DNA of 64,000 nt. Origin: Granulicella sp. S156. GTDB lineage: Bacteria > Acidobacteriota > Terriglobia > Terriglobales > Acidobacteriaceae. Shown here in pieces: positions 60,925 through 64,000 of the stretch (the stretch's first letter is position 1; each line of letters opens with the position of its first letter). The DNA lies in the NCBI RefSeq assembly GCF_009766105.1, contig NZ_LMUH01000022.1, positions 223,545 to 287,544 on the forward strand. Reading direction: 5' to 3'. The translations under genes and the position numbers were made by a program. The notes under the pieces are model-generated. The model had not been told where the DNA came from and made no database searches. It was given only the letters and a program-made list of their open reading frames with translations.

Positions 60925-61338
60925 ATGCCCATGCAGAGCTACCCATACATCTGGCAATATCTTCCTCTCGTGCTTCAGATTCTCGTCGCCGTAGGTCTGG
61001 CCGGCGGCATGGTGGGAGCGTCCTTCCTTATCGGCAAGCACAAACGCTCGCGCACCAAGCTCGGAGCCTACGAGTGCGGCATGGATCCGGTCGGCGACGC
61101 CCGCGGCCGCTTCTCCGTCCGCTTCTACATGGTCGCGATGCTCTTCATCCTCTTCGACGTCGAAGCTGTCTTCATGCTTCCGTGGGCCGTGATCTACCGT
61201 CGGCTACCCGGCATTACCGGTTCCCGCCTCTTCGGCTTCTGGGAGATGCTGGTGTACATCGGCTTCGTAGCCGTCGGCCTCTTCTATGTCTGGAAGAAGG
61301 GCATTCTCAACTGGTCGAACGATAAGGCGGATCTCTAG
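60925..61338 (+). CDS. nuoA: NADH-quinone oxidoreductase subunit A
   Basis: A 137-residue three-helix membrane subunit of complex I. The conserved loop YECGMDPVGDARGRFSVRFYMVAMLFILFDVEAVF is intact, including the Glu-Cys-Gly. Start ATG 60925, or ATG 60931 two codons later. nuoC follows after 6 bp; nuoB, normally between them, is absent here. Confidence 0.95.
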   Translation: MPMQSYPYIWQYLPLVLQILVAVGLAGGMVGASFLIGKHKRSRTKLGAYECGMDPVGDARGRFSVRFYMVAMLFILFDVEAVFMLPWAVIYRRLPGITGSRLFGFWEMLVYIGFVAVGLFYVWKKGILNWSNDKADL

Positions 61339-61344
61339 GAACTT

Positions 61345-61851
61345 ATGGCTGACGAAATCACTAATCCTGCGACCCCAGAGGCCTGTTTCGGCAAAGAAGC
61401 CGTCGCTGCCGCCCTCGCCGACCACGCCGCGATCAAAGGGCTCGACACTCTCATCGTCGACGCCAAGTGGGACCGCAAAGAACTCACCCTCACCGTAGCG
61501 CCTGAAACCATCGTCGCCGCCGCCAAAGCCGCTCAGGCAGCCGGGTACAACTTCCTCGAAGACGTCACCGCTGTTGACTGGTACCCGACAGAGCCGCGCT
61601 TTCAGATCAGCTACTCTATCCTCAGCTTTGGACTGAAGCAGCGCATCCGGTTGGTTGCCCGCATCGCGGAAGGCCAAAGCATCGACTCCATCACCTCTGT
61701 CTGGCCCTCGGCCAACTTCTACGAGCGCGAAGTCTTCGACCTCTTCGGCGTTCACTTCGGCGGCCACCCGCGCCTGACCCGCATCATGATGCCGGACAAC
61801 TGGGAAGGCCACCCACTCCGCAAGGACTACCCCGTGGAAGGTTACCGCTAA
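61345..61851 (+). CDS. nuoC: NADH-quinone oxidoreductase subunit C
   Basis: A 168-residue peripheral-arm subunit (30-kDa type). The family signature is seen as SVWPSANFYEREVFDLFGVHFGGHPRLTRIMMPDNWEGHPLRKDYP. AGGA lies before ATG. Its stop codon overlaps the nuoD start by 1 bp (TAATG). Confidence 0.95.
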   Translation: MADEITNPATPEACFGKEAVAAALADHAAIKGLDTLIVDAKWDRKELTLTVAPETIVAAAKAAQAAGYNFLEDVTAVDWYPTEPRFQISYSILSFGLKQRIRLVARIAEGQSIDSITSVWPSANFYEREVFDLFGVHFGGHPRLTRIMMPDNWEGHPLRKDYPVEGYR

Positions 61852-63176
61852 TGGCATTTGTAGAAGATCTCGAAAAACCCGCCGTACGCGATACGACCGG
61901 AGCTACGCTCGCTGGTTTTCGCAACGCCGAAGACCTCATCATCCCTGACGTGAAGGATGTCGTCGAAGAGTCCGTCTCAGGCCACCATCCGCACGGCAGC
62001 GACCCCGTCTCCGACCGCACGATGGTCCTGAACATGGGCCCGCAACACCCCTCCACCCATGGCGTCTTGCGCCTGGTCCTCGAGATCGATGGCGAAACCG
62101 TCGTCTCCCTCGCACCCGACATCGGCTACCTGCACACCGGCATCGAGAAGACCTGCGAGGCCAAGTTCTACCAGCAGGTCGTGCCGATGACCGACCGCAT
62201 CGACTACCTCTGTCCCATGACCAACAACCTGGCCTACGCGCTGGCTGTTGAAAAGCTGCTGCAACTCGAGATCCCCGAACGCGCCCAATACCTGCGCGTG
62301 CTGTTCAACGAGTTGACCCGCATCCAGTCGCACCTGGTCTGGCTGGGCACGCACGCCATGGATATCGGCGCGCTCACCGTCTTCCTCTACTGCTTCCGCG
62401 AGCGCGAGCAGCTGCTGCGTATCTTCGAGGCCGTTAGCGGCCAGCGCATGATGACCAGCTACATCCGCGTCGGCGGCCTGGCGCTGGAGCCGCCACTCGA
62501 CATCTACAAGCAGATTCGCACCTTCCTCAAGGACTTCCCCTCCAAGATCGAAGAGTACGAAGGCCTGCTAAACAGCAATCCGATCTGGATGGCACGCCTC
62601 AAGGGTGTGGGCTATCTCTCTGCCGCAGACGCCATCGCACTCGGCGTTACCGGACCGCCTCTGCGCGCGTCAGGAGTGGACTTCGACGTCCGCCGCGACA
62701 TGCCCTACTCCGGCTACGAGAAGTTCCAGTTCAACGTTCCGACCTCGACGGTCGGTGATGTGTGGGCGCGTTATATCGTCCGCATGCAGGAGTTTCGCGA
62801 GAGCGTAAAGATCTGCCTGCAGGCTCTGGACGGCCTGCCGGAAGGCCGCATCACCGCCGACGCGCCGAAGATTGTTCTGCCCGACCGCGAGCAGATGAAG
62901 ACCCAGATGGAGTCGCTCATCCATCACTTCAAGATCGTGACGGAAGGCTTCCAGGTCCCAGCCGGTGAGGCCACCAGCTCGGTCGAAGCGCCGCACGGCA
63001 TGATGAACTACTACGTCGTCTCGGACGGCACGGCCAAACCGTACCGCGTGCATATGCGCAACCCCGGATTCGCTACGCTACAGGCTCTTGAAACGATGTG
63101 CAAAGGCAAGCTGCTTGCCGATGTTGTCGCTGTCATTGGATCTATCGACATTGTGCTCGGAGAGATCGACCGCTAA
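61851..63176 (+). CDS. nuoD: NADH-quinone oxidoreductase subunit D
   Basis: A 441-residue 49-kDa-type subunit that helps form the quinone site. Seen: MVLNMGPQHPSTHGVLRLVLEIDGE, the DIGYLHTGIEK and QVVPMTDRIDYL loops, HLVWLGTHAMDIGA, and the C-terminal SIDIVLGEIDR. About 55 residues precede the conserved start and include an acidic, His-containing stretch; this N-terminal extension is longer than in E. coli-type split NuoD. Confidence 0.95.
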   Translation: MAFVEDLEKPAVRDTTGATLAGFRNAEDLIIPDVKDVVEESVSGHHPHGSDPVSDRTMVLNMGPQHPSTHGVLRLVLEIDGETVVSLAPDIGYLHTGIEKTCEAKFYQQVVPMTDRIDYLCPMTNNLAYALAVEKLLQLEIPERAQYLRVLFNELTRIQSHLVWLGTHAMDIGALTVFLYCFREREQLLRIFEAVSGQRMMTSYIRVGGLALEPPLDIYKQIRTFLKDFPSKIEEYEGLLNSNPIWMARLKGVGYLSAADAIALGVTGPPLRASGVDFDVRRDMPYSGYEKFQFNVPTSTVGDVWARYIVRMQEFRESVKICLQALDGLPEGRITADAPKIVLPDREQMKTQMESLIHHFKIVTEGFQVPAGEATSSVEAPHGMMNYYVVSDGTAKPYRVHMRNPGFATLQALETMCKGKLLADVVAVIGSIDIVLGEIDR

Positions 63177-63180
63177 CCGC

Positions 63181-63225
63181 TTTTGTTTTTCTTGTTGTCA
63201 TCCCCGTAGGGGATCTGCTTCACCG
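63181..63225. repeat. Half copy of a family-3 repeat
   Basis: TTTTGTTTTTCTTGTTGTCA followed by TCCCCGTAGGGGATCTGCTT resembles one end of the family-3 elements (TTGTCATTCC...ACCTGCTT). No matching arm follows. It ends about 26 bp before the probable start of the next gene. Confidence 0.6.
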
Positions 63226-63251
63226 TAGTTGCACTGAACCCGGAGGCCACA

Positions 63252-63557
63252 ATCAACGAACGCCTCCACACCGAACTCTGGACCTCCTGGGCGTCTCTGC
63301 TCCGCAGTTACGCAGCCGCCCACGGACTCAACGCACCGCAGCATGCCGTAGTCGAAGTCAGCGCCGAAGAGATCACACTCCGCGTTGGCAGCAGATGGCT
63401 CCGGTTTACACAGCACGAGATGCAGCACAGCGACGAAGCGGCCGTTCCCTTCGCGCTCCAGGAAAACGGCAGCGTAAGCATCAACCACGCCGCTGAAGAA
63501 GAGATGGATCTCGCCGCCGAGCGGCTGGCACGCGAGATGATGTACCCGCCGCAGTAG
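63252..63557 (+). CDS. Unknown protein of about 101 aa within the nuo operon, apparent non-AUG (ATC) start
   Basis: An open frame of 101 codons ends at TAG 63555-63557, between nuoD and nuoE. No ATG, GTG or TTG lies between the upstream in-frame TAG (63207-63209) and codon 57. GGAGG at 63242-63246 sits exactly 5 bp before ATC 63252, which would give a start INERLHTELWTSWASLLRSY. An in-frame CTG at 63234 is an alternative. The content is protein-like: amphipathic helices, a short beta region VVEVSAEEITLRVG and an acidic C-terminus. No family recognised. It may be a live gene with a rare start, or one whose start was lost when the repeat at 63181 inserted. Confidence 0.55.
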   Translation: MNERLHTELWTSWASLLRSYAAAHGLNAPQHAVVEVSAEEITLRVGSRWLRFTQHEMQHSDEAAVPFALQENGSVSINHAAEEEMDLAAERLAREMMYPPQ

Positions 63558-63647: not shown

Positions 63648-64000
63648 ATGGCCGTCGTCCCCAACACGATCTTCTCTCCCGAGACCGCCGCCCGCTTCGA
63701 CAAGCTGGCCTCGATCTATCCCGTCAAGCGCTCGGCGCTCATCCCCATGCTGCTCTATGCGCAGGATGAGGTCGGCTATGTCAGCGATGAAGTCGTAGCG
63801 GAATTAGCCAAGCGCCTCGACCTGCTCGAGCTCGACGTTCGCGGCGTACTCAGCTACTACTCGATGCTGCGCACCAAGCCCGCGGGCAAGTATAACGTGC
63901 AGGTCTGCACCAACATCTCCTGCATGCTGCGCGGCGGCTTCGAGCTGCTGGACCACTGCAAGAAGACCCTCGGCATCGGCCACAAAGGCGTCACCCCCGA
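63648..64000 (+). CDS. nuoE: NADH-quinone oxidoreductase subunit E (3' end cut by window)
   Basis: The first 117 codons of the 24-kDa-type 2Fe-2S subunit. N-terminal helices (FDKLASIYPVKRSALIPMLLYAQDEVGYVSDEVV) and GVLSYYSMLRTKPAGKYNVQVCTNISCML, with the first two cluster cysteines, match the family; the other two lie beyond the edge. AGGA precedes the ATG. Confidence 0.94.
   Translation, partial: MAVVPNTIFSPETAARFDKLASIYPVKRSALIPMLLYAQDEVGYVSDEVVAELAKRLDLLELDVRGVLSYYSMLRTKPAGKYNVQVCTNISCMLRGGFELLDHCKKTLGIGHKGVTP

Follow-up and report, generated by a model that had tools for sequence, protein, structure and literature searches.

How can a gene be translated when no ATG, GTG or TTG stands at its beginning? 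The interval between nuoD and nuoE of Granulicella sp. S156 raises this question. It lies near the end of the window, the whole 64,000-nucleotide stretch of DNA analysed here, and holds the following features.

61851-63176, plus strand: nuoD (TIGR01962, E 2.5e-171)
63187-63221, plus strand: REP-like repeat copy in the gap between nuoD and the gene (homology to other copies; it reaches 63232 in one copy)
63198-63488, minus strand: antisense ORF of 96 aa with GTG start, judged not to be a gene (frame stopped in most relatives)
63242-63246, plus strand: Shine-Dalgarno sequence GGAGG (sequence; enriched at ATC loci)
63252-63254, plus strand: proposed AUC start codon (same codon behind GGAGG in relatives)
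63252-63557, plus strand: gene of 101 codons, stop included, for a predicted frataxin-fold protein outside known families (homologues, dN/dS, AlphaFold2 pLDDT 94.5)
63648-63998, plus strand: nuoE, running off the window end (TIGR01958, E 3.4e-28)

An open reading frame between nuoD and nuoE

Read directly in the sequence, the frame is open from 63210 to 63554, between the stop codon TAG at 63207-63209 and the stop codon TAG at 63555-63557. From the upstream stop onward, the first in-frame ATG, GTG or TTG is at codon 57 of the gene. An earlier note on this DNA had described a 101-codon frame with a spaced GGAGG before ATC 63252 and no standard start, and rereading of the coordinates bears this out; the spacer between the Shine-Dalgarno sequence (SD) and the ATC is 5 nt long (63247-63251). 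NuoC and NuoA are identified by NCBIfam upstream of NuoD in the window. The nuoE match is below the TIGR01958 cut-off because the gene is cut by the window end. The genome belongs to GTDB genus g1, as does Granulicella mallensis X5P3. At 60955-61848 of the window nuoC directly follows nuoA with no nuoB in between, and both nuoB matches of this genome are on contig C19.

Since the gene has no ATG, GTG or TTG to begin with, ordinary gene finders would probably overlook it. The antisense ORF that the earlier note reported is present in the sequence (96 aa, 63198-63488, GTG). Its frame meets a stop inside the gene's first 240 nt in 72 of 121 relatives; the window, L002-L005, L012 and L071 keep it open.

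Homologues and selection

Homologues are found in 178 of the 398 genomes of the family and in 28 of the 61 near genomes. The other 220 family genomes give no match, nor do two genomes of genus g1, G012 and G013, and G350 carries only a 57-codon remnant. The gene is common in the family yet dispensable. In a coarse first look, matches occur in 120 of 200 order genomes and 38 of 396 phylum genomes, and all of those listed are in GTDB family f1.

The nine full-length ATC homologues, including that of the window, are 97-110 codons long and unbroken to the stop. In the six ATC-ATC pairs computed, dN/dS is 0.06-0.17 (first 8 codons excluded). Over codons 2-55 alone, seven pairs, five of which are ATC-ATC, give pN/pS values of 0.07-0.25; these codons are under purifying selection, and therefore the window gene would be translated ahead of the codon-57 ATG. 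Residues E8, W10, S12 and Y20 are invariant across 98 sequences. Judged by these comparisons, the frame is a genuine, functional gene of the nuo operon.

The start codon among relatives

The start codons were compared in 124 homologous rows, consisting of 122 loci plus one truncated first copy each from L005 and L014. The 122 loci come from 119 of the 178 matching family genomes and from the named records L040, L044 and L046. Excluded before the count were 12 named loci on contigs already among the G-numbered genomes (L031-L039, L042, L047 and L051), the overlapping L029 and L030, and the duplicates L041, L043, L045, L048, L049 and L050. Among the other 59 matching family genomes, 47 are outside the sample, and 12 make up, with 6 order-level ones, the 18 divergent loci that were viewed separately. 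The trees exclude the two truncated copies and L028, and the NuoD tree has 109 rows.

In 112 of the 124 rows a canonical start is found between codon -12 and codon +2 relative to the aligned start (ATG 38, GTG 43, TTG 31). In 94 of these 112 it is no more than 3 codons away from the aligned position, and in 73 it is exactly there or one codon earlier, so the alignment of the nuoD-nuoE gap that the earlier note had proposed places ATG, GTG or TTG mostly at or near the aligned ATC position. The remaining 12 rows have no nearby ATG, GTG or TTG and show ATC (9), CTG (1), CTC (1) or CAG (1) at the aligned start. As ATC makes up 25 of 1240 in-frame upstream triplets, its presence at nine of the 12 non-canonical loci is more than chance. 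For the SD counts that follow, L070 was shifted from TTG to ATC by judgement, because its TTG overlaps the GGAGG; unshifted, the count is 8 of 9 ATC loci.

The ATC loci also share a strong SD. GGAGG lies 4-10 nt 5' of the start in 9 of 10 ATC loci versus 2 of 111 canonical loci (L008 and L089), with L070 taken as ATC. The association gives a Fisher p of 5e-11 when kinship is ignored; in a kinship-aware test with 6 independent pairs on supported branches, a mean of 4.4 go in the expected direction and 0 in the opposite one, and with a sign test p of 0.06-0.25 the association is not significant. Besides the window, GGAGG is followed by ATC in L002, L012, L014 (first, truncated copy), L044, L055, L070, L071 and L096. 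These nine loci, one of them a truncated copy, belong to GTDB genera g1 and g51 and to Edaphobacter modestus (L044), and are a minority of the 124. None has an ATG, GTG, TTG or CTG in any frame within 16 nt past the SD. L026 has ATC without GGAGG. The pattern GGAGG-N4-9-ATCAANGANMGNCTNCA matches in 12 of the 398 genomes, and its control in 0; nine of these matches are at the nuo-operon gene, where one genome (G005) has an ATG before the ATC, and three are elsewhere.

Some of the neighbouring states speak against an AUC start. The sister genome L003, whose contig is that of G. mallensis X5P3 (L031), starts with ATG. The isoleucine at the ATC position may be left over from an M-I-N-E-R start that lay one codon to the 5' side, as it does in L004 (ATG ATC) and L097 (TTG ATT). 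ATC is also a minority state, and it changes 8 times on the gene tree and 8 times on the NuoD tree. Either it is ancient and has been exchanged many times, or it arose repeatedly; the trees cannot separate gain from loss.

Translation might begin at another codon, either at the in-frame CTG at 63234, which is 6 codons 5' of the ATC in the window, or internally at the codon-57 ATG; L070, L096 and L026 have an in-frame TTG or ATG at codon 16, so that in these three the frame would allow a later start. The CTG is, however, not present in L002, the nearest ATC relative, and a 1-nt indel (CCC/CC) between the window locus L001 and L002 falls between CTG and SD, immediately 5' of GGAGG, so that the stretch upstream of the SD is non-coding. 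An internal start would drop part of the most conserved stretch, that of E8, W10, S12 and Y20. We consider a start at either codon quite unlikely. Of the two explanations in the earlier note, the rare AUC start is strongly supported, by ATC at nine of the 12 non-canonical loci, by GGAGG upstream and by the purifying selection. On these comparisons AUC 63252 is very likely the translation start, directed by the strong GGAGG. The predicted RNA fold of the start region is unremarkable (z 0.64).

The repeat and the spacing behind nuoD

The 23-mer core of the repeat has 50 matches in the genome at ≤2 mismatches, the window's own included, and the reversed control has 0. The half repeat that the earlier note saw ending 26 bp upstream is therefore real, and its measured end is 19-30 bp before the ATC. 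The word "half" is apt because at least 4 other copies occur as inverted pairs. With its end at 63221-63232, the repeat supplies neither the SD nor the ATC. Nor do homologues place an ATG at the site now occupied by the repeat, a placement that the earlier note would, if no peptides were detected, have taken as a sign of a pseudogene; canonical starts cluster at the aligned ATC, and the window repeat is at least six codons upstream.

The gap between nuoD and the gene is 63-137 nt in the GGAGG-ATC loci. By eye, seven of them hold a clear REP-like element in this gap, and in L012 and L044 the element is degenerate. Gaps of similar size also occur with other starts, e.g. in L073, L074, L075 and L097. 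In the repeat-free L004 and L008 the gap measures 13 nt and the gene has GGAGG and ATG (GGAGGCC-ATG-ATC in L004). In many relatives the gene is 0-25 nt behind the nuoD stop or slightly overlaps it, and such close spacing is consistent with coupled translation. It could suggest that the window gene, too, has no initiation of its own and that ribosomes leaving nuoD re-initiate or slip into its frame. The gaps of the GGAGG-ATC loci are, however, long for coupling, and these loci have their own strong SD; re-initiation is quite unlikely here.

A further reading, which the earlier note had set beside the AUC start, is a decaying gene whose start was removed or split off when the repeat was inserted; the repeat in the gap, the short gap and ATG of repeat-free L004 and L008, the truncated first copies of G016 and G021 and the remnant in G350 could be cited for it, but it is rejected as very unlikely because the ATC homologues show purifying selection (dN/dS 0.06-0.17 in all six pairs) and intact frames (nine of full length), GGAGG-ATC occurs with an intact frame in several lineages of g1 and g51 and in Edaphobacter modestus, and both SD and ATC are outside the repeat.

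infC and other non-canonical starts

The textbook non-AUG gene is infC, and it serves as a positive control for the AUC start at 63252. It was located in 26 of the 28 genus genomes. By eye, 9 of these loci have ATC as the conserved start codon and 17 have ATT; L154 also has an in-frame GTG four codons upstream. In the window's genome infC (G000:C4:54423-54917) reads GGAGG-N6-ATC, with 20 open codons upstream that hold no canonical start; the check by script for such upstream starts covered this genome only. The organism's own infC thus appears to start at ATC, not ATT, and ATC initiation behind GGAGG is very probably usable in this organism. To our knowledge, natural AUC starts beyond infC are rarely documented, and a literature search found no paper contradicting this.

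According to the available text of PMC5472188, infC starts with ATT in E. coli and with ATC in Streptomyces, and its product IF3 autoregulates. The nuo-operon gene shares GGAGG and ATC with infC of the same genome. It differs in that its product is no translation factor, and it therefore has no autoregulatory logic. The same source describes sigR of Streptomyces, which starts with GTC, is repressed by IF3 and is in this way held below the amount of its partner protein (PMC5472188, in part). Here the likeness is a non-canonical start on an operon gene; the start is GTC rather than ATC, and the demonstrated IF3 effect is that on sigR. In Staphylococcus aureus, cvfC1 and ccpN have AUU/AUA starts with extended SDs, shown by ribosome profiling and reporters, and the pairing of weak start and strong SD at ccpN is conserved in B. 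subtilis (PMC13009471, available text). The nuo-operon gene likewise joins a weak start codon to a strong SD; the S. aureus cases are experimental and ours is comparative. In general, IF3 destabilises initiation at non-canonical starts and strong SDs go with weak starts (available parts of PMC5472188, PMC13009471 and PMC5622118). Switches to non-canonical codons are very rare; 2 switches to AUU are given for about 68,900 reconstructed ancestral starts, and no switch to AUC is found in the available part of that source (PMC5622118). Like infC, pcnB and sigR, the nuo-operon gene has no usable canonical start, a strong and well spaced SD, and an odd start codon shared with some relatives.

Predicted fold of the protein

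For the window protein, Pfam and NCBIfam return matches below cut-off only. Pfam matches among 98 homologues are scattered, with ≤3 members each (best E 8e-5), and 10 divergent homologues give a best E of 0.036. A PDB sequence profile search returned two viral chains (E 0.35 and 0.43), considered chance matches. AlphaFold2, run with the 98-sequence alignment, predicts a helix, six strands and a helix with a pLDDT of 94.5. Foldseek alone finds nothing at E ≤0.001 for this model, and its top row is yeast frataxin (E 0.19). When its candidates are aligned with VIA-align, CyaY comes first with Z 8.2. CapZ (actin-capping, Z 8.0) and a Mediator subunit (Z 7.8) also outrank Nqo15 (2fug_7); for Nqo15, Z is 7.5 and rmsd 2.7 across 91 residues, and no listed row exceeds its 22% identity; by the program's own warning, Z <8 may reflect just a common arrangement. 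The model of the divergent homologue L239 (pLDDT 91.3) is closer to CyaY (Z 10.1, rmsd 2.5, 96 residues), with CapZ at Z 8.6 and Mediator at 8.5; Nqo15 (2fug_7) is not found in the best 50 rows for this model. The frataxin-like fold, an alpha-beta sandwich, is well supported by these predicted models.

Nqo15 is a subunit of Thermus complex I with a frataxin-like fold (PMC10855754 and PMC10703789, available text). The window protein resembles it in its predicted fold. It differs from Nqo15 in having no PF11497 match, and its gene is inside the nuo operon, unlike the Thermus gene, which is placed outside the nqo operon in the available text of PMC10855754. PF11497 is over cut-off in 0 of the 28 genus genomes, and its 5 weak matches, in 4 genomes, lie elsewhere. 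An hhalign comparison with Nqo15 gives a probability of 11%, with a score beaten by 1 of 150 shuffles. By sequence, homology to Nqo15 is suggestive, not decisive, and a special kinship to it is not supported. The protein resembles CyaY/frataxin in fold, with Z 8.2 and, for the homologue L239, 10.1 (both predicted models). It differs in that frataxin, PF01491, is absent from its Pfam matches up to E 1, and the genome's single PF01491 match is a separate CyaY on contig C24. With neither PF11497 nor PF01491 matching, we assign the protein to neither family.

Proposed mechanism and significance

We propose that the SD would position the 30S ribosome and that initiator tRNA would accept AUC inefficiently. 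IF3 would discriminate against the pairing of initiator tRNA with AUC, as at infC, pcnB and sigR. With this discrimination and a weak AUC, synthesis is expected to be low and IF3-sensitive, and the protein level would be so relative to NuoD and NuoE, made from the same mRNA. The idea in the earlier note that AUC keeps expression low is plausible. Given its gene's place within the nuo operon, the product most likely acts on complex I; by location, predicted fold and analogy with Thermus Nqo15 it would be an accessory subunit or an assembly/Fe-S helper of the complex. We put forward only tentatively, as a doubtful if possible reading, that an old or recurrent AUC start in Granulicella/Edaphobacter keeps a complex I accessory or assembly factor with the frataxin fold under IF3 control. 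If true, translation-initiation status (the IF3:ribosome ratio) would govern how much of this factor there is relative to the core subunits.

What is new is an SD-supported non-canonical start in a nuo-operon family of predicted frataxin fold, to which searches of Pfam and NCBIfam assigned no model; this type of start is already known. The literature search found no paper naming the nuo-operon gene and none pairing Nqo15 with Acidobacteri. One codon position alternates among ATG, GTG, TTG and ATC in relatives, with a strong SD going with ATC, so that the locus offers a natural experiment in how start codons are replaced and SDs compensate. With this gene the nuo operon of Acidobacteriaceae gains an overlooked protein of predicted frataxin fold that lacks a Pfam model, which bears on why frataxin-like proteins associate with complex I.

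Possible insertions between nuoD and the gene

In g51 relatives (L074, L075, L077, L073, L093, L097 and L247) another short repeat, GGGGC-TTTA/ATTT-GCCCCTGAGGTA and its variants, abuts the gene. By eye it appears to donate both an SD (GAGG) and the TTG or CTG start. Two genomes have a truncated copy, with the gene's first codons, 5' of a full copy (L014 728-1492 and L005 1144-1501). These truncated first copies belong to G016 and G021, the latter being L014, where GGAGG-ATC is on the truncated copy and ATG on the full copy, with a HepT-like gene between the two. L003, L010 and L011 have a second small protein between nuoD and the gene; that of L003 is a divergent paralogue (hhalign probability 97.7%, E 2e-12), and those of L010 and L011 look alike by eye. 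The gap is about 300 nt or more in 33 loci and holds varied small ORFs (the longest ORF was taken mechanically). It looks like a hot spot where small ORFs insert, and two of the four gap ORFs scanned match a Pfam family, Uma2 in L113 and HepT-like in L014.
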